In this document: one piece after another, positions 337 to 23,312 of the stretch
How positions within the stretch are numbered: the first letter of the stretch is position 1
Layout: each line of letters begins with the position of its first letter
Virus record (IMG/VR): IMGVR_UViG_3300031722_000161
Span: 1 to 24,771 of that record
Length of the DNA: 24,771 nucleotides
Source of the DNA: a virus
Reading direction: 5' to 3' (one strand)
Program-made: the position numbers and the translations under genes
The notes under the pieces: model-generated
Seen by the model: only the letters and a program-made list of their open reading frames with translations
What the model was told of the DNA's origin: nothing
Database searches by the model: none

Positions 337-1122
337 TTAAAAAAGTCCTGCAGGCTGCGCCTCGACATCCCAGCTACTGATGATCAGCTCGGTGCGCTCC
401 ACGCCCTGGCCGCCGCCGACGATGTACTTGATCGGCACCTCGACGAGGTGAAAACCTTCAAAGCAGCGCCGGATGTCCGGGTGATCGTTGATGCTCAGCA
501 TGGCCTTGCCCTTGAGCCCGCGCATCATTCCAGCCATAGCCTCGTATTCAGCCCAGGGGAATGGCACACCATACCCTTCAGTTTCCCAGTACGGCGGGTC
601 CAAATAAAAAAAGCTGTGCGGCCGGTCATAGCGCTTGATACAGTCCTTCCAGTCCAGCCGCTCAATGTGCGCGCTGGACAGGCGCAGATGGGCGGCGCTG
701 AGCTGCTCTTCGATACGCAGCAGATTGACCGCTGGCGCCGTGGTGGCCGTGCCCCAAGTCTGGCCCTGGACGCGGCCGCCAAAGGCCTGGTGCTGAAGGT
801 AATAAAACCGCGCCGCCCGCTGAATGTCGGTCAGCGTCTCGCTGGGCGTGTCCTGCGTCCAGCGGAAAATCTCCCGGCTGCTGAGCTGCCATTTGAACTG
901 GCGCACAAACTCCTCCAGGTGATTTTTGACCACGCGGTATAAGTTGACCACGTCGCCATTGATGTCGTTGATGACCTCAACGTCGGCGGGCTGACGCAGG
1001 AAATAAAGCGCTGCACCACCGGCGAAGACCTCAACGTAGCAGGTGTGAGGAGGAAAGCGCGGGATGATGATGTCGGCCAGGCGGCGTTTGCCGCCGAGCC
1101 ACGGAATGATTGGGGATGCCAT
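337..1122 (-). CDS. DNA adenine (N6) methyltransferase, D12 class / Dam-like
   Basis: The protein is 261 aa from the chosen ATG. It should transfer a methyl group from S-adenosylmethionine to the N6 of adenine in a short DNA target. Visible motifs are the N-terminal PWLGGKRRL (7-15), typical of the D12 class, the SAM-binding FAGGAAL (33-39), an ND pair near 52-53, and the catalytic DPPY (175-178) within FFYLDPPYWETEGYG. The chosen start puts PWLGGK at the usual distance from the N-terminus but has no clear Shine-Dalgarno. An in-frame ATG at 1236 has GAGGTG almost touching it and would add 38 non-conserved residues. As phage cargo it probably protects DNA from host restriction or alters host methylation. 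There is no cognate restriction gene here, and the target site cannot be read from the sequence. Confidence 0.93.
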   Translation of the reverse strand: MASPIIPWLGGKRRLADIIIPRFPPHTCYVEVFAGGAALYFLRQPADVEVINDINGDVVNLYRVVKNHLEEFVRQFKWQLSSREIFRWTQDTPSETLTDIQRAARFYYLQHQAFGGRVQGQTWGTATTAPAVNLLRIEEQLSAAHLRLSSAHIERLDWKDCIKRYDRPHSFFYLDPPYWETEGYGVPFPWAEYEAMAGMMRGLKGKAMLSINDHPDIRRCFEGFHLVEVPIKYIVGGGQGVERTELIISSWDVEAQPAGLF

Positions 1123-1261
1123 ATTTGTGAGGTTCAGTAAGAGGTTGTTACACTGCCTATGCCTTCCGGGAGGTGGCAGGGTCTTGGCTGGCTCACAGGC
1201 GCGATCTGTGGATTGGCGGCCGGAAAGGGTGTTCATGCACCTCGCCCGGTCGCCCTGTCTT

Positions 1262-1805: not shown

Positions 1806-2027
1806 TTAGATTTCAATAATTTCAATCGGCAAATTGGGCGCAACGCCCTCAATCACCCCATCCCTGACAAACACACGCTGGCCCCCAGTCGCTGCGCCAC
1901 GCGCCTGCAACCGACCGCCGCCGGGCAGCTCGACGGTGGCCACGCCGTCAGCAATGACCAGCACAGTGCCGACCTGCAGCGGGCGCGCAGGCAGCAGGTT
2001 CAGGAAGGTGCGGTAAATATTGGTCAT
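1806..2027 (-). CDS. Small OB-fold-like tail-tip/hub accessory protein
   Basis: This 73-aa protein begins MTNIYRTFLNLLP and continues as alternating short beta strands with glycine turns (VGTVLVIADGVATVELPGGG, then a QRVFVRDG stretch). The pattern resembles a small OB-fold or beta-barrel, as found in hub-associated proteins of long-tailed phages. It lies 9 bases after the 680-aa hub-like gene, with AAGG about 8 bases before its ATG, and is followed by the holin. I do not recognise a named family. A structural role beside the hub is inferred from position and from the predicted fold. Confidence 0.7.
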   Translation of the reverse strand: MTNIYRTFLNLLPARPLQVGTVLVIADGVATVELPGGGRLQARGAATGGQRVFVRDGVIEGVAPNLPIEIIEI

Positions 2028-2036
2028 GAGCGAGCC

Positions 2037-4079
2037 TTAAACATGGGTTTCGACAGAGAGGGTTTGACGCAGCTTCGGCATGGACCAGTCCAGCCCGATG
2101 TTGCGCACCAGCCCTATATGCGTCTCCGACTCATTTCGGTAGCGCACGAACTTACCCGGCAAGATCAGCCCGGTCTCTGCCAGCACTGGCAGCTTTAAGC
2201 TGACATCGGCCTGCATGCCCGTGTCAGCCAGCTCAGCCAAGCCGCGCTGGCGGGCAGCATCGGCATGCGTGATGAGGGCATGCGTGACCATAGGCGCGAC
2301 GCTGTCGCCCGCCGTTCCCGCCCGCGTTACCTGGCCCAGCACCCCGGCGCCGATGCCGCTGACGTGGATGCGGTTGTAAGCTGCCTTGCGCTGCCAGGTG
2401 ATGCCCTCGACCGTGGCAATGCCGGGCAGCTCAAAGTCCGGCACCACATCGCCCCAGTCCCAGGGCGCGACTGGGTACTTGGGCAGGATGCGCAGGGTCT
2501 GCTCCGTATCGTGCGGCTGCACATAGCCGCCCGCTGCGCCCGCGATGTCCAGAATGGCGCTGATGTAGTTGCCCTGGTGGCTCCATGCATTGCCCGGCAC
2601 CAGCCAGTCAGTCAAGCCAAAATCTACATCCCAGCCGATGCCCACGCCGTTGATCGTCAGCGCATCGAGCATGAGCTGCTGCGCGGTGCGTGCCTCGGCA
2701 TTGCCGAAGTGGAGGGTTGGAGCATAAGGCGCGTCCAGGATCGCCGCCGTGCCGCGACCTTTGATCCCCACACGCCCTTTGGCGAACTGACGCTGTCGGT
2801 CTGGACCTTCAACGCAAAGCCGATACGGGACACCGTTGACAACCGCCTCCACCTCAACGGGATCGCCGCTGATGCCGGGCTTGACAAGTGCCAGCGCATT
2901 GACGGGGATGGATGTGCTCCACGACCAGGTCCACGACTGCCAGTCGAGCGCCATGTTGAATCCGAAAGCCGGAATCGACGCGCCGTCGCTCACGCGGCGC
3001 AGGACTATTAAATTGATGGTCACATAAGCCTTTAAAAATGGGATGACGACGCGGGCCGGTGGCAGCGGCGCCCGGCCACTCGGGTAAGCCGAAAAAACCA
3101 AATGCAGCGGCAGCCCGCGCAAAGGCTTGCGCTGGAACAGTAGATGCGTGCTGCCCACATGCCCGGCAGGCGTTACAACCACGGGCGGCCAGACGCCTTT
3201 GCCGACTGCGGGCCATCGGGCCAGCTGCCACGGTATGAGCCGGGCTGTGTCGATGTGATTGGCGCGGCCCATTTTCCCGGCCGCAACATATCCGCGCTGG
3301 CTGGCTACCTGGTGCAGCGCGGCGGCTGTGTGCAGCAGCCGGTCGGCGACCTCAAACGCCCCGGCAGTGCGGATGCCTACAGCCTGCGCCGTCTGCCACG
3401 CGCTTTGCCGGGCCTGCGCCAGCCGGTCGGCTACCTGCGCCAGGATGGCAGCCTGCAGCGACAGCGCCCGCGCCAGCTGCCAGTCCGGCGCGACAGCCAG
3501 GGCGCGGGCTGTGGCCACGCAGTGCGATACGTCCACGGCGCGCCTTACGGGCAGCGCCTGGCACCAGCTTGGTGTCGCGCCGCATTGCTCGCTGCGGGAT
3601 GTGTGCCATGCGCCGCCGACGGCCCGCCTGGCGGGAGCGGCCACCTGCTGGGGCGCTAGTGCAGGCCGGTGCAGGTAGCGCGTGACGCGGTTGTCGTACC
3701 CGAGTTTTCCGGACAGCCTCAAGCCGGGCAGCAGAGCAGCCGCCTGCAAGGTGACACCATCCAGCGCCGTGAGGCTGGCGCGCAGCGCCAGTCCGGGCAA
3801 TGCTGCCTGCAGTGACAGACCATCGAGCGCTGTCAGGCTGGCGCGCAAAGTCAGGCCGGGCAGCGTGGCCTGCAGCGACAGCGATAAATCCTCCGGTGCA
3901 GCCGCGCCGCCCGCTGCGCCAAACACGAGGTTGCACGGCGGCCCGGCTATCCGGGCAGCACGGAAAACCAGATTGACATTTGCCGTGGGTGTGACTGCGC
4001 CGCCTGCTGCGCCGAATACCAGGTTGTAAGGCGGCCCAGCAATCGGCGCCGCGCCAAAACGAAGATCGACAGCAGCCAC
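2037..4079 (-). CDS. Tail-tip protein: repeat-rich N-terminus joined to a baseplate-hub-like C-terminus
   Basis: The protein is 680 aa. Residues 7-53 carry repeats of the motif NLVF(G/R)AA with IAGPP. Residues 66-125 carry three copies of a 21-residue unit (LQA-LPGL-LRASLTALDG). Residues 145-300 are rich in Trp, Gln, Ala and Arg, with no family that I recognise. Residues 350-680 look like the domain found in tail hubs (gp27/late-control-D type): beta-rich segments, TWSWSTSIPVNA, then a helical part (ARTAQQLMLDALTINGVG), a Trp-rich loop (PVAPWDWGDVVPDFELPG), and a C-terminal barrel ending in LRQTLSVETHV. The hub joins tube, tape measure and tip. It starts 3 bases after the 135-aa gene and is followed by the OB-like 73-aa gene, as is common for hub and spike pairs. 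The hub assignment is by pattern and place. Confidence 0.75.
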   Translation of the reverse strand: MAAVDLRFGAAPIAGPPYNLVFGAAGGAVTPTANVNLVFRAARIAGPPCNLVFGAAGGAAAPEDLSLSLQATLPGLTLRASLTALDGLSLQAALPGLALRASLTALDGVTLQAAALLPGLRLSGKLGYDNRVTRYLHRPALAPQQVAAPARRAVGGAWHTSRSEQCGATPSWCQALPVRRAVDVSHCVATARALAVAPDWQLARALSLQAAILAQVADRLAQARQSAWQTAQAVGIRTAGAFEVADRLLHTAAALHQVASQRGYVAAGKMGRANHIDTARLIPWQLARWPAVGKGVWPPVVVTPAGHVGSTHLLFQRKPLRGLPLHLVFSAYPSGRAPLPPARVVIPFLKAYVTINLIVLRRVSDGASIPAFGFNMALDWQSWTWSWSTSIPVNALALVKPGISGDPVEVEAVVNGVPYRLCVEGPDRQRQFAKGRVGIKGRGTAAILDAPYAPTLHFGNAEARTAQQLMLDALTINGVGIGWDVDFGLTDWLVPGNAWSHQGNYISAILDIAGAAGGYVQPHDTEQTLRILPKYPVAPWDWGDVVPDFELPGIATVEGITWQRKAAYNRIHVSGIGAGVLGQVTRAGTAGDSVAPMVTHALITHADAARQRGLAELADTGMQADVSLKLPVLAETGLILPGKFVRYRNESETHIGLVRNIGLDWSMPKLRQTLSVETHV
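3705..3884 (-). repeat. Three tandem 63-bp coding repeats
   Basis: Within the 680-aa tail gene, a 21-codon unit of the form LSLQA(T/A)LPGL(T/A)LRASLTALDG occurs twice in near-perfect form. A third diverged copy (VTLQAAALLPGLRLSGKL) follows. The alternating polar/hydrophobic pattern suggests stacked beta strands. High DNA similarity between the copies makes slippage or recombination likely. Confidence 0.85.
3921..4061 (-). repeat. NLVFGAAGGA coding repeats
   Basis: At the very N-terminus of the 680-aa tail protein the block IAGPP(Y/C)NLVFGAAGGA occurs twice, 31 residues apart, with a partial copy (VNLVFRAAR) between them and an RFGAAPI remnant in front. A related stretch (HLVFSA) reappears near residue 327. 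Confidence 0.8.
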
Positions 4080-4082
4080 GCT

Positions 4083-4490
4083 TTACCCGAGTTTGAGTTC
4101 GAGCGGCTGCACCTGGCCGCCCGCATACAGCACGGGCACGCGCAGGCACAAGGCGCCAGCGACCAGCGGATCGCCCGGCGACAGCACCACGACAGGCGCA
4201 GAAATGCACGGCACGCCGCTGCCATTGACAAAAAGCCCCCAGGTCGGCGTGCCCGTGGCCACATTCATGGCGTTTGCGGCCGTGCTCAGCGTCAGTTCAC
4301 CCGCTGTAATCGTTCCCGACGGTTCGGCTAGCGCGACATCCACGATCAGCGTGGCCGTGACCGGGGCAGACAGCGCCGTGCGCGTCCCGTCATAGAGCTG
4401 CAGGCGGGCCGGGCCTACACCGGCATTGAGCTGGTCGAGCACCACCTGCAGGCGCGCAGCTGCGATGTCGGCAGATATTTCAAGCGACAT
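4083..4490 (-). CDS. Small tail-tip protein, unknown function
   Basis: This is a 135-aa protein, starting at MSLEISADIAAARLQVVLDQ. An upstream in-frame ATG at 4532 would add 14 residues lying wholly inside the preceding gene, and these look unlike protein. The chosen ATG overlaps the end of the LamG gene by 11 bases, which suggests coupling. After an N-terminal helix the chain is beta-rich and hydrophobic (SAPVTATLIVDVALAEPSG and similar), with no catalytic motif. In family terms this resembles small structural proteins of siphophage tail tips, but I do not recognise it by name. Confidence 0.75.
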   Translation of the reverse strand: MSLEISADIAAARLQVVLDQLNAGVGPARLQLYDGTRTALSAPVTATLIVDVALAEPSGTITAGELTLSTAANAMNVATGTPTWGLFVNGSGVPCISAPVVVLSPGDPLVAGALCLRVPVLYAGGQVQPLELKLG

Positions 4491-5997
4491 TGATGATCTC
4501 CGGCGTGATGTTGTCGCCCACGGCCGCGCCATATTGGCCGGTGTGGTCGTAGCTCAACACGGTGTACTTCACGCCTTCGCGGATTCCCCTGAATTCGTAA
4601 TTACCCGTGACCGCGTCGCTCCAGGTTTCGCGCACGGCCACGCGGCTGCGCTCGTCGATGAGCAGCACGCGACGGCGCCACGGCGTGTTTGCGGGCGCGT
4701 GCTGTTCCTTGACCGTGCCGTAAATGATTCCGGTGCCGCCGTGGTACGCATCAAAAAAAGTATGTTCGCGCAGGTGCCCGGTTGCCGTGCCTGCTGGCTG
4801 TGCGGCGGTAGGTAGATACCGCTGCGGCTGCAAGTGCTGGCGCATGCGGGGCAGCAGTGCGCCACTTGTCAGTCCAGTGTCCAGCGGCCCAGGTAGGCGT
4901 GTGGCGGGCGGGGTGAAATTGCCGCTGTACCGGGCTGCGCCCACAGTGATACGCAAGTCTTGCAAGTAGCCGTTGAAATACTCCGCGCCCGCCGAATAAT
5001 CCCACAGCCCAATCTTCAGCGGCTGATTGCTAGCATCGGGCGTTAAGAGTCCTGTCCTGGTTCCAGCCAATGCGCCATTGATCCATACTTTTCCAACTGT
5101 GCCTTCTCGCGTTACTGCGAAATGAGTCCAGGCACCCGCCAAAAATGCGTTTGGTATGTCAACATATTGTTCTGTCTCATTGGATGTAGCGTAAAAAGCT
5201 ACTCTAAGAAAGGCATCCGACCCACCCAGCCAGCGAGTCGAGAAAGCGAAAGCACCCGTCCACAAATAATTTGTCGTCGTGTAAAACCCCCGATGAACAA
5301 TGCCAAAGTTAGAGCTGATGGAGCGCGGGTAAATCCACACCTCGACCGTGTACAGCGTGCCCAAATCGAAATCAGTGCTCGACGGGATTGTCAGACAGTC
5401 GCCAGCGCCGTCGAACGCCATCACTGACCCGCCGGTCGTTGTCTGCGCTGTGGATATGTGGGCGTCGCCCACAGGCGTGACAGTGTGGCCGCACACGTCA
5501 GTAAACACTGAAGAGCCGTTCGCCCCGTCACCGTGCAGCAGCAATTTAACTTTGTCGAAAACCGGGTCACCTTCAGTCCACGGTGTATGAGTGACACTTT
5601 GCGGGCCGGGAAATGCGATCGCAGAATATGACTGGTGGGTCAACCATACCTGCCCGTCATCTGAATACTGAAACATCAGGTCCAGCGGGAATGTGCCAGC
5701 GGCGCCGCATGCCCCAAGTTGTAGCTGAGCATATTCCACACCTTGCCCGGCGCCGAAATCCCATACCAAGGCAAAGCCTGCGCTGCTGTGCGCCGAAAGC
5801 AGCCATGACACTGACCCAGTCGTAAAGCCATCGCGCAGATCAGCCAGCGCTCCGGTGGTAGGCGAAAACGTGCAGCTAAGCGTTGCAGTCTCGTCTGCAA
5901 GCACGCCAGCGGCATAAATCCGGGCCTCGGACAGCTCCAGCGGTCCATTGCCGGGGACAGAAAATCCGACCAACCGCCAATAACGGTGCGCGGCCAT
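4480..5997 (-). CDS. Tail-tip protein with LamG/concanavalin-like lectin domain
   Basis: The protein is 505 aa. Residues 1-140 start with RYWRLVGFSVPG and contain LELSEARIYAAG and FPLDLMFQYSDDGQVW, the pattern of a discoidin (F5/8 type C-like) beta-sandwich. Residues 150-362 form a LamG/concanavalin-type domain: LLLHGDGANGSSVFTD, then FDGAGDCLTIPSS, then YTVEVWIYPRS, then WTHFAVTREGTVGKVWINGA, and LKIGLWDYSAGAEYFNGYLQ. Residues 423-480 resemble a carboxypeptidase-regulatory/prealbumin-type sandwich (RVLLIDERSRVAVRETWSDA and then GNYEFRGI). Such domains bind sugars, so a role in receptor recognition or virion decoration is likely. It starts 3 bases after the 386-aa gene. The LamG core is markedly less GC-rich than its neighbours, a sign of separate acquisition. 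Confidence 0.85.
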   Translation of the reverse strand: MAAHRYWRLVGFSVPGNGPLELSEARIYAAGVLADETATLSCTFSPTTGALADLRDGFTTGSVSWLLSAHSSAGFALVWDFGAGQGVEYAQLQLGACGAAGTFPLDLMFQYSDDGQVWLTHQSYSAIAFPGPQSVTHTPWTEGDPVFDKVKLLLHGDGANGSSVFTDVCGHTVTPVGDAHISTAQTTTGGSVMAFDGAGDCLTIPSSTDFDLGTLYTVEVWIYPRSISSNFGIVHRGFYTTTNYLWTGAFAFSTRWLGGSDAFLRVAFYATSNETEQYVDIPNAFLAGAWTHFAVTREGTVGKVWINGALAGTRTGLLTPDASNQPLKIGLWDYSAGAEYFNGYLQDLRITVGAARYSGNFTPPATRLPGPLDTGLTSGALLPRMRQHLQPQRYLPTAAQPAGTATGHLREHTFFDAYHGGTGIIYGTVKEQHAPANTPWRRRVLLIDERSRVAVRETWSDAVTGNYEFRGIREGVKYTVLSYDHTGQYGAAVGDNITPEIINVA

Positions 5998-6000
5998 TCC

Positions 6001-7161
6001 TTACCGCCAGTCCGAGACGTGATCGACAAACACGCAGCCGCATTGCGCGGGCGTCATGATGAGCGCGCCCAGGCGCACGGCCTGGACTTTTTTTCCGACC
6101 ATGTCGCCGCCTCCATCGACAACGTCCCCAGTGGCAAAGCTGGCGTTGACCACCTGCGGCGAGTAGTGCAGGCCGGGAAGGTAGCTGCGTGGTCCTTGCG
6201 CGTTGTGCAGCAGCACGGGCGTGAGCATCAAGCCGTTATCAACCGGCGCCGGGTAAGCAAAGCCGACTGACCCGGTGACGTGCGCGGCCGTAACGCCCAG
6301 CGCCATCACTGGCGCCGACGACACCCGCACCGCGCCGCCCAGCGTGTTGGCGGCGCGGGCCATGTACAGGCCGTCATACGCCTGCGCGCCGTCGGCATAA
6401 ATCAAGTCGTCGCCGAAGGTGCCGCCCGCCGCCGCCGACTTGTCCGACACATTGCCGCGCAGTGCGCAGGCGTAAGGGTCGCCGCTCTTGAGCGACAGGA
6501 CATCGCCGAAATAGTTGCCCTGGTACTCGCCGCCAGCGCCAAGGTTTTTGACGAAGAAATGGAAACCCAGGTCATCCGCATAAATGCGCCACTGGACGGC
6601 GGCACCGCTGGCGGTATTGGATTTGCTCCACCAGAGGCCATCCGCGAACTGCGCGGCGCTCGGAAACAATCCGCTTCCGGTGCTGACATCGCTCATGGCT
6701 TCAAATCCGCGCACCCGCGCCGTGGTGGTTCCGGTGTCGTCCACCCGCAGATAAAAGCCCGTCCCTTCGGCAGAATTGGATTTGTAAGCAGCCAGACTGG
6801 CGCCTGTGAACGCCTTGCTCCAGCCCGCCGCCGCGACCTTGAGCGTGATGGCGCCAGTGGCCGCGCCGTCGGGCGCCGTGGTGGCCCAGCTCACGGCATT
6901 GGCGCCCACCGCCATGACGCGCTGCTCTCCGTTCAGGCCTGCGACGCTGGCGCCAGCCACCAAGATGACTGTGTCCACGTCAGCGCTGGGCATCGCGGGC
7001 ACCGTGGCCGTGGCGATACCGCCGGAGACGACCAACGAACTGACGCTCTGCAGGCCAAAGCCGGTGACAAGGACTGCGTCAAGCACGGACAGCAGCGCGC
7101 CAGCGGTGCCAGACAAAACGGGCGCGCCGGGCATAGCGCTGTGAAACGATTTGGTTTTCAT
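6001..7161 (-). CDS. Tail-tip structural protein, 386 aa, unknown function
   Basis: Begins MKTKSFHSAMPGAPVLSGTA, with SD AAGGA 5 bases before the ATG. Residues 1-120 look like short beta-sandwich repeats (VSSLVVSGGIATATVP, then VDTVILVAGAS). The middle, 120-260, is rich in aromatic and Gly residues (GTGFYLRVDDTG, WRIYADDLGFHFFVKNLG, YQGNYFGDVLSLKSGDPY). The C-terminal part includes QGPRSYLPGLHYSPQVVN and ends in VFVDHVSDWR. It lies 37 bases after the 1171-aa gene and just before the LamG gene. I recognise the type only as a structural protein associated with tail-tip clusters of siphophages. The position implies a place in the distal tail. Confidence 0.8.
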   Translation of the reverse strand: MKTKSFHSAMPGAPVLSGTAGALLSVLDAVLVTGFGLQSVSSLVVSGGIATATVPAMPSADVDTVILVAGASVAGLNGEQRVMAVGANAVSWATTAPDGAATGAITLKVAAAGWSKAFTGASLAAYKSNSAEGTGFYLRVDDTGTTTARVRGFEAMSDVSTGSGLFPSAAQFADGLWWSKSNTASGAAVQWRIYADDLGFHFFVKNLGAGGEYQGNYFGDVLSLKSGDPYACALRGNVSDKSAAAGGTFGDDLIYADGAQAYDGLYMARAANTLGGAVRVSSAPVMALGVTAAHVTGSVGFAYPAPVDNGLMLTPVLLHNAQGPRSYLPGLHYSPQVVNASFATGDVVDGGGDMVGKKVQAVRLGALIMTPAQCGCVFVDHVSDWR

Positions 7162-10719: not shown

Positions 10720-11118
10720 TTAAATCTCCAAAAATCTCAGGGTTGGCACGTACCAGTCGTCGGGCTGGATCGAACCGTCTTCGTAAAAAATCACAGGAAA
10801 GCCTCGCAACGCCCCGGCCGCATGGTTAAAAATCACTGTGCGGGCCACGCTGCGCACAACCAGCGTCAGCTCGATGCCGGGGAGCGAGGCCAAGGCCTGC
10901 AGCGTGTCGCACAGCGCACGGGTACACCAGGTGCAATCCTCACTGCCCTCAAGCGTGATGGGGCGGCCTGCAAGCTTGAGAGCAACATCGATGATCAATG
11001 CGCCCTCGGTGCTGTATTCGGTGGACTGCTCCACGGGCGACCAGCCGTATTCGTTAGACCAGTTCAGGGCTTCTGGCAGCTCAACGGTGGTGGTGTTGTA
11101 GGTCAAGGTGATGGTCAT
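10720..11118 (-). CDS. Small tail protein with Cys-rich motif, 132 aa
   Basis: Starts MTITLTYNTTTVELPEALNW and overlaps the end of the tape measure gene by 4 bases (ATGA), so it is translationally coupled to it. The N-terminal half looks like a beta-sandwich similar in style to distal-tail proteins. Residues 57-70 hold EGSEDCTWCTRALC, with Cys at 62, 65 and 70, which could bind a metal with one further ligand or form a disulfide. The C-terminus returns to strands (GFPVIFYEDGSIQPDDWYVP, then TLRFLEI). Position directly after the tape measure gene is where lambda M or a distal tail (Dit-like) protein would be. The family is not recognised. Confidence 0.8.
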   Translation of the reverse strand: MTITLTYNTTTVELPEALNWSNEYGWSPVEQSTEYSTEGALIIDVALKLAGRPITLEGSEDCTWCTRALCDTLQALASLPGIELTLVVRSVARTVIFNHAAGALRGFPVIFYEDGSIQPDDWYVPTLRFLEI

Positions 11119-14100
11119 GATGCGGTACTGCGTGCGGTGGTCAGTTGGCTCAAGATGTCGCTGAGATTGATGGCGCTGGCAGCGTCCGTCATGCTGATCG
11201 TCTTCTGAGCACTGCCGGGGATCGTGATGTTGGTGACATAAGTGTTGGTCGCAGGCGTGGGTTGGGCTGCAGGTGCCGCTGCTGGTGTTACCGCTGGCTG
11301 GGGTGTAGATGCCGCATTGCTTTGCGCTGCAGCCGTAGCACTGGCACTGGAATTGGCATTGGTACTGGCATTGGCTAGGACAAGCTCATCAATCTTTTTC
11401 TGCAGCTTGGTGCTCCAAGTTGAGCCGTCCATATCTTCGGCGCGCGTCCCCGCAGTAACCGACTTTCCGTTGTACGGCAGGGCAGTTTCATTTGATAGTT
11501 TCAGCGCCTGTTCTTCAGTCAGACCTTGCGATTTGGCATTTTCATAAATGCTTCTTTGGGTCTGGATTTCTTGGATGACGCGCTGGCCAGCGGTGTTCAA
11601 GCTGTAGCCTTCTTTGTCGATATTCAGCCGCTCACGCTCCAGAGCATTGCGACGCTCAACCAGGGCATTTTCCGCTTCCAGCAGCGCGATCTGGTGCTCG
11701 CTGTAGTCAGCAGACAGCGTGTACCGCATCATCATTTTCTCAAAGGCGTCAGCCCGCGCTTTGATGGCTTCGGTGCTGAGTTGAGTGGCGGCAGTCTCCA
11801 ACACTGTCGAGGCAGTGTTCGTCTTTGTTTTTGAATTCCACTCGTCGCGGATCTGATTTCCGGTTTTCAGCGACTCCAATTGCTTTTTCAGCTCAGTGAC
11901 GCCCGCTTTGGTGGCCTCGGCTTCCGTTAGCTTGATTTCAGCTGAGCGGATGCTGTTTTCGATGGTCAGGCGCTGGACTTCCGTGAGTTGGCCCTTGGCC
12001 TCCAATTCGGCTCTGGTGGCATTGGAGACGGCCATGATTCCAGTGGCCTCGGCCATCAAAGTGGTGTAGCGCAGCTCGATCAGCTTGATGTCGATTTCTT
12101 TCTGCTTGATGACTGCCTGCGTATATGCATATTCATTGCCTAGGCGCAGTGCTCTTTGCTTTTCTGCTTCGGCCTGGGCCTGCAGTAGGGTGTAACCTGA
12201 CTGCTGCAGTTGCAGCTCCGACTGCTGCGCCGAAGCCCGTGCAGATTCGAGTCTGATCGAATCGCTCAAGGCATCTTTGTAGAGCGCTTCGGCCTGCGTG
12301 CGGCGGCGGGTGGCATCCGTCACGGCCTCTTTTGAGATCATTCCCTCTTTTTCGAGCCGGATGTAATCGGCCTCGACTTGCATGGCCTTTTCCAGGGCGA
12401 CACGCGATGAGGCCACTGCCAATGCATTGTCCTTATATGCGTCAAGGGCAATCCGACGCGCAGTCGCCTCGTTTTTAGCTGCTTCAAGCGCGTTGCGGCT
12501 GGCGATAGTTTCAGCCTCCATCGCGCTGACCTTCGCCCGGATTTCAGTGATGTCCTTAGCCCGTGCCGTTGATTCTTTTTCGTTACCAGCGATCAGCGCG
12601 AGCTTTTGGGTCAGCTCAGACTGCAGCGTGGCGAGACCTTGATTCCGGGCGCTGGTCAACGCGCTCAAAGCCACCACATTTTTTTCAGCGGCGGCAATTT
12701 CGGCCTGCAGCGTGTCGGCATCATTGCCGCGCAGCTTGGTCAGTGCCACGATACTGTCACCCTCGATTTTTGCGGCAGCAGCCAGCTTCTCGGACACGGT
12801 GACCTGCTTTTCCTGCGCTACTACGACCTCGCCCAGCAGGACGCCGAGCTGCACCCACTTCTCATTTAGGCCAGTGGTGCTGTCTGCCATGATTTTCTGG
12901 GCCAGCGCTGCGCCGTCGGTGGCGGCGGCATTGGCTTGGATGGCCGTGGTGGCATTAGCCATCTTCGCAGCTGCTGCGGCTGCGGCCTGAGCACCTGCAC
13001 GCATCGCCTCTGTTGATGCGCCCAGGGCATCTGCATGCTTTATGGACATGCCTGCCGCCGATGCAAACGACTCGGTGAGCGCCTCGACGCGGCCCGCCGC
13101 GCCACCGAAAATTTCTTTCAGCGCATCGAGCGGATTGGACAGCGTGGTCAGCGCCCCGGCCAGCACGCCGACGGCTTTAGCCGAACCGAAAATTATCTCG
13201 ATGAAGGCTGCAATCGGCACCACAATCACGCCCAGAACAGCGGCCAGCGTGCGCAGGGACAGCGTCAGCACCGCCATGCCGCCCGAGTCGCCCAGATTCG
13301 TCAGGCTCAGATCCAGCGCGTTTTTAAAGCGCTCCCAGCTGCCAGCAGCAGTATTCGTATCGCCCTCCATCGACTTGAGCGATTCGGCCAGCGCCGGGAA
13401 CAGGTCGCGAGCAGCCAGCTTTCCAGCGCCGACCAGGTTGACTAACTGCAGCTCGGTTAACCCCAAACCTTTGGCAACCAGAGACAGCGAGCCCGGCAAA
13501 TTTTCGCTCAATTGCCCACGAAGCTCTTCCATTTGCACGGTTCCCTTGCTGGCCATTTGGCTCAAAGCCTGCAGAGCAAGGGATACGCGGTCGGTGGACA
13601 GGCCGAGCGTGGCACCGGCTTTTGTGACGCTGCTAAACAGCGCATTGGTGGTTTCCAGCGGGATTCCAGCAGATTTTGTGGCTGCTGAAAATCCAATAAA
13701 TGATCTCGACAAACTGCCAGCCGACACGCCTGCGCTGTCCGCAGTCCTGCGCAAAAAGTCGAGCTGCCCGGCGGCCGTGGCGCTGTTTTTGTAAATGGCG
13801 TCCAGCGCCCGGCGCGTGGACTCCAATTCGGTGTTTGACTTCCAGAAGGCCGCGCCCAGCTCGGAGACCTTGCCGACCAGATAGCCGATGCCGTTGGCAA
13901 TCAGGTTGCCGCCGGTGATCTGGCCCATGCCCGTGCTGAACGCGGCGCGTGCCTTGTCGGTGAGCGTCAGCGTGCCCTCGATTTGCCGCAGGCTCAGCTC
14001 TAACTCCTTGATTTTTGCGTTGCCTGCCGCAAAGGCGCTCTGCAGCCCGGCCCCAGTGGCACTGCTGCTGGTGCGGATGGTGTCCATCGCGGCGCGCACC

Positions 14101-15377
14101 CGTGCAATTTCCGACTGCAGCTCCTGGGCGCTGCGCACGCCGACCGTGCTGTATGCATTTTTCAGCGCCGTGGCGGCGGCGGCAGCAGCCTCGGCCAGGC
14201 GCTTTTGCTCAGCGGCGGCGGCTTGCTGCGCTATCGTAGAACGCGCAGTTTCGGCGGCTAAAAACCGCTCAGCCTCAGTTAGCAGATCAGCAGCGCGCTT
14301 GGCTTTGGCAGCAGCTTCCGCCGCTTCAACGATGGCAAACGCATCACGCTGCCATTTATCCGCTGCATCGCTGGCAGCCTGTTTGGCGGCAGCAGTGGCA
14401 GTAGCCAGACGCTGCTGTTCAGCGGCAGCAGCGGTGGCGGCAGCGGTTGTTTTCCGCGTCTGGGCTTCAGCCTCGTGCTGGGCTGCGATTTCAGCAAGCA
14501 GGGCATTGCGCCCTTTTACAGCCTGCTCTTCCGCTGCTTTTGCCTGAATAGACAGCAGCCGGTCAGATTCGCGCATTTCGTCAGCGGCTGCTTTTGCGGC
14601 GGCGGCGGTAGCGGCAGAATTTTTCAGAGCTCTAGCCAGGTCATCAACCTGGGTTCTCAGCCCGGCTTCTGCGGCGCCGAGGGCTTTTTGGGTTTGCGCC
14701 AGGCCGGTTCCCTCAACCCCCAGCGCCTTGAGTGCAGTGCGCGATGCGTCCAGGGCGCGATTGGTGTCGCCAAGGTCAGCCGACAGCCTGCGGGTGGCGC
14801 TTTGGGCGCGCTCATATTCGGCGGTCAGGGCGCGCTCGGACTGCTCGGCGGCTTTTGCGCTGGCAACATCCGTCTTCAGTTCGTCGTTTTTTTGCTTGAG
14901 GCTTATGCGCAAATCGGCAATGGTGGTGCGCAGCTGGCTGTTAGCGTTTTTGTATTCGTCGGTGCCGCGCGCGGCGCCGGTGTAATCTGTGCGCAGCTGC
15001 ACCAGGGCGGCGCGCTGCTCGGCCAGTTTGTTTTTGGTGTCGGCTACCACCTGGGCGGCAGCGGCCTGGGCGCTGGTCATGGCCTGGGTGCTGGCCTGCG
15101 CGGTGCGCAGGTCACCGGCCAGCGCCTGCAGCTCCCGGTCAGCCGTGTTCAGCGCCTGGCCGACCTGGCCAGACTCCAGCTTCAGCGCCCTGAAGGTTTC
15201 AATCGCCTGCTGTTTTTCGCCCAGGGCCTTGAGCGCATCGGCGGCGCTCAGGGCCTTGGTCTTCAAATCCCCGTCCAGAGTGCCAGCCAGCCCGCGCAGT
15301 GTCTTTTCGAGGGTATCGACGCTGGCCGTTCCGCTGACGGCCGCCTCGATGTCGTACTTGATTTTTGGTTCTGCCAT
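11115..15377 (-). CDS. Tape measure protein, 1420 aa
   Basis: Sets tail length and is probably ejected with the DNA. Residues 1-470 are a very Ala/Gln/Lys-rich coiled-coil region. Residues about 510-695 form the tape-measure domain (NTELESTRRALDAIYKN, SRSFIGFSAATKSAGI, then MASKGTVQMEELRGQLSENL and SWERFKNAL). Residues about 700-745 are strongly hydrophobic (LRTLAAVLGVIVVPIAAFIE) and may insert in the host membrane. Residues about 880-1200 are again long helices with Glu/Lys/Ala heptads. About 1340-1400 is a disordered Ala/Pro/Thr linker before a short beta-like end (TNTYVTNITIPGSAQ). The chaperone genes normally found upstream are absent: only 31 bases separate it from the tail tube gene. 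SD is weak. Confidence 0.95.
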   Translation of the reverse strand: MAEPKIKYDIEAAVSGTASVDTLEKTLRGLAGTLDGDLKTKALSAADALKALGEKQQAIETFRALKLESGQVGQALNTADRELQALAGDLRTAQASTQAMTSAQAAAAQVVADTKNKLAEQRAALVQLRTDYTGAARGTDEYKNANSQLRTTIADLRISLKQKNDELKTDVASAKAAEQSERALTAEYERAQSATRRLSADLGDTNRALDASRTALKALGVEGTGLAQTQKALGAAEAGLRTQVDDLARALKNSAATAAAAKAAADEMRESDRLLSIQAKAAEEQAVKGRNALLAEIAAQHEAEAQTRKTTAAATAAAAEQQRLATATAAAKQAASDAADKWQRDAFAIVEAAEAAAKAKRAADLLTEAERFLAAETARSTIAQQAAAAEQKRLAEAAAAAATALKNAYSTVGVRSAQELQSEIARVRAAMDTIRTSSSATGAGLQSAFAAGNAKIKELELSLRQIEGTLTLTDKARAAFSTGMGQITGGNLIANGIGYLVGKVSELGAAFWKSNTELESTRRALDAIYKNSATAAGQLDFLRRTADSAGVSAGSLSRSFIGFSAATKSAGIPLETTNALFSSVTKAGATLGLSTDRVSLALQALSQMASKGTVQMEELRGQLSENLPGSLSLVAKGLGLTELQLVNLVGAGKLAARDLFPALAESLKSMEGDTNTAAGSWERFKNALDLSLTNLGDSGGMAVLTLSLRTLAAVLGVIVVPIAAFIEIIFGSAKAVGVLAGALTTLSNPLDALKEIFGGAAGRVEALTESFASAAGMSIKHADALGASTEAMRAGAQAAAAAAAKMANATTAIQANAAATDGAALAQKIMADSTTGLNEKWVQLGVLLGEVVVAQEKQVTVSEKLAAAAKIEGDSIVALTKLRGNDADTLQAEIAAAEKNVVALSALTSARNQGLATLQSELTQKLALIAGNEKESTARAKDITEIRAKVSAMEAETIASRNALEAAKNEATARRIALDAYKDNALAVASSRVALEKAMQVEADYIRLEKEGMISKEAVTDATRRRTQAEALYKDALSDSIRLESARASAQQSELQLQQSGYTLLQAQAEAEKQRALRLGNEYAYTQAVIKQKEIDIKLIELRYTTLMAEATGIMAVSNATRAELEAKGQLTEVQRLTIENSIRSAEIKLTEAEATKAGVTELKKQLESLKTGNQIRDEWNSKTKTNTASTVLETAATQLSTEAIKARADAFEKMMMRYTLSADYSEHQIALLEAENALVERRNALERERLNIDKEGYSLNTAGQRVIQEIQTQRSIYENAKSQGLTEEQALKLSNETALPYNGKSVTAGTRAEDMDGSTWSTKLQKKIDELVLANASTNANSSASATAAAQSNAASTPQPAVTPAAAPAAQPTPATNTYVTNITIPGSAQKTISMTDAASAINLSDILSQLTTARSTAS

Positions 15378-22550: not shown

Positions 22551-22576
22551 GGTTCAGGGATATTTTCGGTAGAAAT

Positions 22577-22619
22577 AAAAAAACCCCGGCCACTGGTTGA
22601 ACAGTGAACGGGGCTTTTT
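22577..22619. terminator. Bidirectional intrinsic terminator in the leader of the head operon
   Basis: CCCCG (22584-22588) pairs with CGGGG (22609-22613), and CACTG (22591-22595) pairs with CAGTG (22602-22606) around the loop GTTGAA, with a 2x2 internal loop. Seven A's lie left and five T's right, so it works on both strands and best on the minus strand. It stands 27 bases before the GpZ-like start, downstream of the minus-strand promoter at 22714-22743, so transcripts must read through it to express the head genes. Confidence 0.9.
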
Positions 22620-22637
22620 GAGGCCAGAAAAGGCTTG

Positions 22638-22673
22638 TTTTTCGGGTTTTTGGTGCTTTTTTAAGGGTTTTTT
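22638..22673. other. Four phased T-tracts, likely curved DNA
   Basis: Runs of 5-6 T's occupy 22638-22642, 22647-22651, 22657-22662 and 22668-22673. Their centres are about 9, 10.5 and 11 bases apart, close to one helical turn. Such phasing is known to give intrinsic bending. In the minus-strand transcript the same tracts are an A-rich, probably unstructured leader. Confidence 0.7.
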
Positions 22674-22702
22674 CAGGTAAGCGTAGTTGGGGGACTTACC
22701 TG
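22674..22702. repeat. Inverted repeat / leader hairpin
   Basis: CAGGTAAG (22674-22681) and CTTACCTG (22695-22702) are perfect 8-bp arms with a 13-base loop. The right arm begins about 12 bases downstream of the minus-strand -10 box, so the hairpin would be at the very 5' end of the transcript. No U-tract follows on the minus strand (A's follow), so it is not a terminator there. Possible roles are an antitermination or RNA-stability element or an operator. Confidence 0.75.
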
Positions 22703-22713
22703 TATTGGTGCCA

Positions 22714-22743
22714 AATATAGGGCAAAGTGTCAGGTGTTGTCAC
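22714..22743 (-). promoter_or_regulatory. Sigma70-like promoter for the head operon
   Basis: On the minus strand GTGACA (22738-22743, 5 of 6 to TTGACA) and TATATT (22714-22719, 5 of 6 to TATAAT) are 18 bases apart. Predicted start is near 22707, giving a leader of about 157 bases before the GpZ-like ATG, which contains the hairpin, the A-tracts and the terminator. Confidence 0.65.
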
Positions 22744-22745
22744 GA

Positions 22746-22779
22746 CCTATTTTGTCAGGTCTAGACCTGACAAAATAGG
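22746..22779. promoter_or_regulatory. Perfect 34-bp palindrome between divergent promoters
   Basis: The left arm CCTATTTTGTCAGGTCT is followed directly by its exact reverse complement, with no spacer. Symmetry resumes after 3 bases on each side with TGTCA (22738-22742) and TGACA (22783-22787), which overlap the two -35 boxes, so about 50 bp are symmetric overall. Best explained as a binding site for a dimeric or tetrameric regulator that controls both promoters. Confidence 0.9.
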
Positions 22780-22781
22780 AC

Positions 22782-22812
22782 TTGACAAAGTATCAGACAA
22801 TGTAGTTACAAA
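22782..22812 (+). promoter_or_regulatory. Possible promoter for the plus-strand cargo gene
   Basis: A perfect TTGACA (22782-22787) begins 2 bases after the palindrome. The -10 is weak: TACAAA at 22807-22812 with a 19-base spacer, or GTTACA with 17. A weak -10 would suit activation by a protein bound to the palindrome. The start codon at 22833 has no SD, so the transcript may have a very short leader. Confidence 0.45.
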
Positions 22813-22832
22813 AACGAAACCCATTTACCAAA

Positions 22833-23252
22833 ATGCAAAACAGATCAGTCCCTATCATCCCGCGCTACACGCGTATTTGTAAGCAATGCGGCACATTGAA
22901 CAACGGTGAAAGCCAAGGAGGACTTCCTGGTAGTGGCTGGATTGAGGTTGTGCTGTGGCTGTGCTACATCGTGCCTGGGTTGATTTACTCAATCTGGCGA
23001 CGTGGAAAAAAGAATGTGACCTGCTCGGCCTGTGCCAGTAGGGATCTGATCCAGGTCGGAACCCCCGTGGGCGCGCAGCTGGCGCGGCAGTATCACCCTC
23101 AGGCCATCATTGCAGAAAGTGGATCACTTCTCCCTCCCGAGGCCAAAAAAGCACCACCTCCTTCCGCTGCACGCATCTTTAAGACAATTGGCCTACTTCT
23201 TTTGGCTATTTTTGTGATCGCGTTCATTTCAGGCGTTATCTCTCGAATGTAA
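22833..23252 (+). CDS. Double zinc-ribbon membrane protein of unknown function (phage cargo gene)
   Basis: The protein is 139 aa and the only gene on the plus strand. CKQC (16-19) and CSAC (64-67) form two halves of a zinc ribbon, split by a membrane segment with its flanks (GSGWIEVVLWLCYIVPGLIY, about 34-52, followed by SIWRRGKKN). After 'TPVGAQLARQYHPQ' comes a Pro/Lys linker and a second membrane segment (IGLLLLAIFVIAFISGVISR, about 119-138). The core resembles a widespread bacterial family of small zinc-ribbon proteins with a Pmp3-like 'PGxIYSxWR' stretch and no known function. Its lower GC, opposite strand and private control region mark it as a moron. It may be expressed in the lysogen. 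No SD before ATG. Confidence 0.85.
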   Translation: MQNRSVPIIPRYTRICKQCGTLNNGESQGGLPGSGWIEVVLWLCYIVPGLIYSIWRRGKKNVTCSACASRDLIQVGTPVGAQLARQYHPQAIIAESGSLLPPEAKKAPPPSAARIFKTIGLLLLAIFVIAFISGVISRM

Positions 23253-23278
23253 GGCTAAATGTCCTAACCACGGGCGGG

Positions 23279-23312
23279 CCGGATGCATTGATGGCCATCA
23301 CAGCCGGTTTTT
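23279..23312 (+). terminator. Weak possible terminator of the plus-strand gene
   Basis: CCGG at 23279-23282 can pair with CCGG at 23304-23307, followed by five T's. Inside lies a 12-bp palindrome, TGATGGCCATCA (23289-23300). The stem is interrupted, so efficiency is doubtful. It stands between two convergent genes. Confidence 0.3.

Follow-up and report, generated by a model that had tools for sequence, protein, structure and literature searches.

The window analysed here is the 24,771-nucleotide stretch at positions 1 to 24,771 of IMG/VR virus record IMGVR_UViG_3300031722_000161, and our subject is a tail hub gene within it whose product carries a long N-terminal arm of repeats. The gene is encoded on the minus strand from 4079 down to 2037 with a GTG start codon, frame 1 of the plus strand is not open across 2037–4079, and the 680-residue minus-strand protein is real and conserved. 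The original prediction, made from the letters alone, described a hub-like C-terminal domain joined to an unusual repeat-rich N-terminus, and structure comparison confirms the hub-like part. From its free end the arm is composed of one or more hairpin motifs, a variable number of LPxL units, a cap with conserved Tyr and Arg-Pro (Y...RP), and about eleven alternating 14-residue aromatic units; in 62 of 91 aligned proteins (scored by regular expression) it ends in a second hairpin motif next to the hub (Table 1).

The hub domain and its relatives

AlphaFold (all models here are monomers) predicts residues 351–680 from a 96-row alignment with a predicted local distance difference test score (pLDDT) mostly above 90. 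The best Foldseek match of this domain is 3d37_A (E 7e-17), with 40 matches at E ≤0.001, and VIA-align pairs it with phage Milano 8fqc_C1 at Z 22.2 (root-mean-square deviation 3.4, 294 residues), with Mu 9ki1_G at Z 21.1 and with T4 1k28_D at Z 17.2. A PDB sequence search gave no match for the 680-residue protein (E up to 1) or for the 96-row profile (E up to 0.1), so that the hub is recognised by fold comparison only; from the model we are confident that residues 351–680 are a tail hub of the Mu gp44 / T4 gp27 / VgrG type. Of the 50 structure chains listed, 41, Mu gp44 and Milano among them, enter the hub match no later than residue 20, and those that enter it later include PdpA and partial matches; the 345-residue stretch ahead of the hub fold is therefore unusual, though not unique.

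The PHROG family phrog_6079, labelled 'tail protein', matches residues 45–680 (profile 12–604 of 605, E 3.5e-128), and the broader PHROG 1887 matches residues 417–661 only. The earlier statement that the N-terminus resembles nothing known thus stands for Pfam and NCBIfam, neither of which matches the 680-residue protein, and falls for PHROGs, where the phrog_6079 match takes in most of the arm. Searches with the hub found 148 genome loci, the best 80 of which are mostly titled Burkholderiales, with Lysobacterales and others, and 235 viral contigs, of which 80 were kept. The hub is present in Curvibacter PCA1, Acidovorax ACPWH and ACF1, and Stenotrophomonas S1, as well as in phages of Pseudomonas, Psychrobacter, Shewanella, Vibrio and Pseudoalteromonas, and prophages and phages of beta- and gammaproteobacteria also carry the N-terminal extension. 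Three contigs (L066, L070 and L072) share the same hub match, at 42% identity and the same coordinates, and sit in genomes labelled Eggerthellaceae, Aeriscardovia and Clostridia, all from ruminant gut; they are probably phage contigs binned into the wrong genomes.

Repeats of the N-terminal arm

The largest part of the arm had been described as rich in Trp, Ala and Arg, which is correct as to composition, but it is more than a bias and its periodicity of 28, 14 and 42 residues had been overlooked. The region is a degenerate 14-residue repeat that alternates as a 28-residue super-repeat. In residues 128–300 of the window protein the periodicity reaches z 6.7 at 28, 4.3 at 14 and 3.9 at 42 relative to shuffles, and in the 58 of 100 proteins divisible by a motif regular expression, mean self-similarity has z 29.4 at lag 14 and 25.1 at lag 28. 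An approximate consensus of the unit is x-[R]-[W/F/H]-Q-[D/E]-[A/G]-x-[R/P]-L-R-x-[G/A]-x-x, and the cap residues Y128 and R134 are conserved in at least 90% of the alignment. Scored with a matrix trained on the same 91 arrays, every array ranks above the highest of 455 shuffles. Units resemble the next but one (similarity 7.3 at lag two) more than their neighbours (1.9 at lag one), and the alternation statistic is 3.97, compared with 0.01 (standard deviation 0.25) in 60 permutations.

The span of the array is close to constant. We measured it between two conserved residues, Tyr 128 and Gly 293, landmarks defined by columns of the 96-row alignment (window protein included), and it is 165–171 residues in all 91 rows that have both. 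Of the five remaining rows, three have a substitution at a landmark and a span of 166–168; also among the five are L041, which has 11 anchors of a Pro-Trp-Gly type, and L019, with a 13-anchor chain extending past the array. The span is thus 165–171 residues in 94 of the 96 aligned proteins, with about 11 units plus the Y...RP cap, and the stretch ahead of the array ranges from 28 to 154 residues in the same alignment. When units were fitted, 11 were found in 81 of the 91 arrays, 10 in four and 9 in six, a count that partly follows from the fixed length, because the fit allowed 9–12 units with the first forced near the cap and 12 hardly fits. Among distant phages, which share 26–40% identity with the window protein in the matched region, the best chain has 11 anchors in Shewanella 1/44, Vibrio 1.055.O, 1.049.O and 2.096.O, and Acidovorax ACPWH, and 14 in S1 and HS6, or 11 after three in the hairpin/spacer region are set aside by eye; the last anchors in these chains were likewise picked by eye.

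The free end behaves differently. The NLVFGAAGGA repeats and the 21-residue LPGL repeats of the original prediction are both real, the former as a duplication of residues 1–31 in 32–62 (Table 1) and the latter with 19 of 21 residues identical between the first two units. The underlying 63-bp repeats are not near-identical as was thought, since these two copies agree at 81% of positions and the third is degenerate; the longest exact run is 13 bp, which should offer little for slippage. There are no LPxL units in 11 of the 91 proteins, one in 9, two in 40, three in 23, four in 7 and five in 1, and the spacing from one LPxL to the next is exactly 21 residues in 64 of 111 instances. A loose regular expression finds no N-terminal hairpin in 8 of the 91 proteins, one in 60, two in 19, three in 2 and four in 2, counts that are rough because the expression matches shuffled sequences (0.32 per sequence) and scores two of the window's LPGL units as hairpins.

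Copy number had been expected to differ between relatives, and it does so in the LPxL units (0–5) and the hairpins, but not among the closest full-length relatives, in which the LPGL number is unchanged (L003 and L004 are identical, and L005 is 88% identical and of equal length). Vibrio phages 1.055.O and 2.096.O, with hubs 97% identical, have two and three hairpins respectively. Those of 2.096.O come in 84-bp steps, the first two sharing up to 74 of 84 bp. The difference between the two phages exceeds one clean unit step, because the 2.096.O protein has 30 more residues and there is divergence within the hairpin stretch too. The public record of 2.096.O (L197) annotates two 'CRISPR spacers' (clustered regularly interspaced short palindromic repeats) inside the hub gene at 1948–2089; we reject this annotation, as the site holds the 84-bp hairpin repeat of the arm. 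The idea of a repeat region that lengthens or shortens as a whole therefore needs correcting: one part is variable, and the largest, residues 128–295, is near-fixed in 94 of 96 proteins.

In the AlphaFold models the array of the window protein scores below 50 in pLDDT for the most part and includes a helix of low confidence at 197–270, and in L042, a relative with cleaner repeats, the array has pLDDT 29–43 and no fold. A beta-stack had been suggested for residues 60–130, where AlphaFold does draw beta-hairpins, but with low pLDDT (about 33–51 in the window protein, 51–67 in the L042 units).

Table 1. Features of the hub gene and its surroundings (positions in the window; residues of the 680-residue protein)
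Feature	Position	Strand	Remarks
Tail hub protein with N-terminal repeat arm	2037..4079	-	680 aa, GTG start, phrog_6079
Residues 1-62, two 31-residue hairpin-like units (DLxF...LVFG)	3894..4079	-	22/31 aa, 65/93 bp identical
Residues 63-127, three 21-residue LPxL units, cores at 67, 88, 111, third degenerate	3699..3893	-	
63-bp tandem repeat, copies 3819-3881 and 3756-3818	3756..3881	-	51/63 bp identical
Residues 128-141, conserved array cap	3657..3698	-	family consensus Y-x-S-xxx-R-P-x-V, from alignment
Residues 142-295, eleven degenerate 14-residue x-W-Q-x-A-type units, 28-residue super-repeat	3195..3656	-	
Residues 296-345, linker rich in Pro, with second hairpin-like motif (LLF...LVF) adjoining hub	3045..3194	-	
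Residues 346-680, hub domain, Mu gp44 / T4 gp27 fold	2040..3044	-	confident from ~351
Dam-type adenine methylase near hub gene	337..1236	-	
73-aa protein (phrog_5076)	1806..2027	-	PHROG match, conserved neighbour
Small protein upstream of hub gene, phrog_3758 'virion structural protein'	4083..4532	-	PHROG match
Probable adhesin, LamG and C-terminal domain similar in relatives	4480..5997	-	profile matches, relatives
Tail protein, phrog_9998 / phrog_9600	6001..7161	-	PHROG match
Tape measure	11115..15377	-	same strand as hub gene

Neighbouring genes, selection and recombination

The hub gene lies near the end of a minus-strand run that begins with terminase, portal, head protease, decoration, major head and major tail proteins, continues with the tape measure, proteins of 132 and 1171 residues and then of 386, 505 (LamG) and 149 residues, and closes with the hub, the 73-residue protein, a 176-residue protein and the Dam-type methylase. 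The terminase runs off the end of the window, which is therefore probably a fragment. In 12 of 13 annotated phage records the hub gene is followed by a protein of 70–78 residues (the exception is L193); the window's 73-residue version has no sequence match in the PDB and may possibly be a small plug or OB-like tip protein. The open reading frames (ORFs) at 4083–4532 and 4480–5997 overlap (4480–4532), and the L005 counterpart of the 149-residue protein has 136 residues, which suggests that its true start is later than 4532. The N-terminal part of the adhesin is variable, with LamG in the window and an annotated SPRY in Curvibacter PCA1, and its C-terminal part (GTVKEK...ETWSD type) is alike in the seven relatives compared, so the protein has the look of a constant anchor bearing an exchangeable receptor-binding part. 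Methylase genes also follow the hub in MuM16-1 and S1, and lie farther away in AS1. Between ORFs of 233 and 170 residues, positions 22551–23311 hold no minus-strand ORF of more than 61 residues; a plus-strand ORF of 139 residues occupies 22833–23252.

The arm is under purifying selection, and its rate of evolution exceeds that of the hub. For the window and L005 the ratio of nonsynonymous to synonymous substitution rates (dN/dS) is 0.29 in the arm (hairpins 0.20, LPGL units 0.35, array 0.37, pre-hub segment 0.16) and 0.13 in the hub. Over 51 non-independent pairs, picked for equal length and arm identity above 80%, the medians are 0.25 for the arm and 0.07 for the hub, and the arm has the higher value in 50. 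The arm can also recombine away from the hub: hub identity is 93% or more in 183 pairs, seven of which have arms less than 60% identical, and in the four involving L173 DNA homology of 85–88% starts 121–213 bases before the hub domain, and in the pair L010–L164 (79%) it starts at the hub.

We also compared divergence in the arm with that of neighbouring genes at 71 loci, holding hub similarity constant and using 200 permutations for each comparison. Array similarity correlates at 0.36 with the 386-residue type of protein (6001..7161), which tracks array divergence best among the neighbours tested, and at 0.28 with the N-terminal part of the adhesin, both above all 200 permutations. For the part ahead of the array, the correlations with the four upstream segments are much alike (0.19–0.25, each above its permutations). 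Linkage alone was considered as an explanation; the array correlations run from the 386-residue type through the adhesin N-terminal part to the adjacent gene, with no fall with distance, although the differences are small.

Possible role of the arm and comparison with known systems

Aromatic motifs that are evenly spaced and near-fixed in number, in a region without a fold of its own, suggest an arm seated on a fixed number of partner sites, or else one spanning a fixed distance between two anchors. We infer that the array is not a self-standing domain but an extended, partner-dependent docking arm, in which each evenly spaced aromatic motif would occupy one of a series of equivalent sites on the tail-tip assembly. 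These sites could belong to the hub trimer, to the distal tail ring or to the products of the adjacent upstream genes (tail-tip and adhesin proteins), and the length of the array would be set by whatever the arm spans. The hairpins and LPxL units at the free end would form a copy-variable appendage or clasp in which gain and loss of units is tolerated, and the arm would tie the receptor-binding parts to the hub; where the array is flanked by similar hairpin motifs, these fit a clasp. We give this proposal, in which a docking arm with a free end of variable copy number organises the tail tip, about an even chance of being correct.

Several observations sit uneasily with it. The low pLDDT of the array would also fit a disordered tether or a trimer-only fold, and the second hairpin motif is not found by regular expression in 29 of the 91 proteins. 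The array itself is weak in Psychrobacter Y8A (7 of 11 anchors aromatic) and irregular in Haddon, the Marinobacter AS1 homologue shows no clear array, and L193 has no aromatic chain, though it has a 28-residue period (z 3.2). Chains comprise 10 units in PCA1, 9 in MuM16-1 and 10 in the window, where one of the ten scored units barely matches (0.3 bits) and two others are weak (4.0 and 4.2). The seven decoupled pairs come from three lineages at most, weaker homology (65–75%) reappears farther upstream in four of the five L173 and L010–L164 pairs, and the two L131 pairs keep DNA homology through the arm and so show divergence, not a joint. As to the neighbours, the array correlates with the adjacent small protein at 0.26, below the permutation maximum of 0.284, the values for the adhesin C-terminal part (0.13) and the 73-residue protein (-0.06) do not exceed theirs either, and hub similarity tracks the upstream genes at 0.42–0.60 but the array at 0.26.

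The first alternative is that three arms intertwine into a central trimeric fibre or needle below the hub, tipped by the hairpins and LPxL units and with a fold that forms in the trimer only. The regular aromatic spacing, the low confidence of the monomer models and the position of the variable units at the free end all agree with it. Fibre shafts of the beta-spiral type, however, typically differ in repeat number between relatives, whereas the array does not vary freely, its span being kept at 165–171 residues in 94 of 96 proteins, and we consider such a fibre unlikely.

A further possibility is a counted belt or ruler, in which each chain would present twelve 14-residue modules (the cap plus eleven units, or six 28-residue pairs) in register with a six-fold or pseudo-six-fold tail tube and hub. 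Each module might then lie on one ring subunit or on successive rings, so that the hub arms would bind the end of the tube, the distal ring and the adhesins to one another. At about 46 Å, 14 residues in extended form would come close to the rise of a tail ring or to one-sixth of the girth of the tube, but we regard this scheme as doubtful.

Low pLDDT and the faster evolution of the arm relative to the hub would likewise suit a flexible tether that presents the N-terminal hairpins on linker sequence making no specific contacts, and the N-terminal domain of Salmonella phage Jersey gp32, which is placed on a flexible tether in the available portion of its description (PMC13243795), is a precedent. 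A mere tether needs neither a near-fixed number of units, a recurring W-Q-x-A motif, a cap or alternating unit types, nor purifying selection, and this account is quite improbable. Tail tips initiate tail assembly, so the N-terminus could instead be an assembly factor (a chaperone or initiator arm, e.g. for the tape measure) that has no role in attachment and ends up removed or buried. That is the least credible account, and against it the homologue p48 of phage MuM16-1 is reported in virions in the part of the study available (PMC8541194), although this detection may not extend to its N-terminus.

The hub and its PHROG family were already known, and the hairpin and LPGL repeats are variable units of a common sort; what appears to be new is a 14-residue array of near-fixed number in the hub arm of many prophages and phages. 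We found no description of such an array in the open-access literature searched, nor anything on it in the accessible portions of papers on R4C (PMC10276861), Lydia (PMC11946847) and PCA1 (PMC9763317). The role of the array is testable and unproven, and the array offers a clear test of tail-tip cohesion and of the exchange of adhesin modules under a constant hub.

Among known systems, the Mu gp44 / T4 gp27 / VgrG-type hubs resemble the window protein in their fold over nearly the whole of residues 351–680 and in their place in the tail gene cluster, but those of Mu and Milano match from residue 20 or earlier and the window protein has 345 residues ahead. PHROG 6079 spans residues 45–680, arm included, although its label carries neither a mechanism nor a description of the repeats. 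The p48 protein of Shewanella phage MuM16-1 (H23) has a homologous hub, a 73-residue protein after it and aromatic 14-residue spacing in its arm, but by eye it has one hairpin and no LPxL units. As far as the accessible sections of that report go (PMC8541194), p48 was found in virions by mass spectrometry together with p45 and p46, a detection that would fit either retention or loss of its N-terminus, and the authors propose receptor recognition for the conserved five-gene block p45–p49; these sections make no mention of the repeats. Jersey gp32 also has a conserved N-terminal addition to a siphophage hub, without a clear position and left unplaced by AlphaFold, although no 14-residue array is described in the text examined (PMC13243795). 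In JBD30, whose hub is gp53, chain 8rk3_b aligns in part only (Z 10.6, 209 residues). In the same phage the distal tail protein gp49, a different protein from the hub, has an N-terminal loop that, according to the sections of the paper available (PMC11445458), wraps round the tail fibres, and it provides a precedent for extended arms that organise a tail tip.
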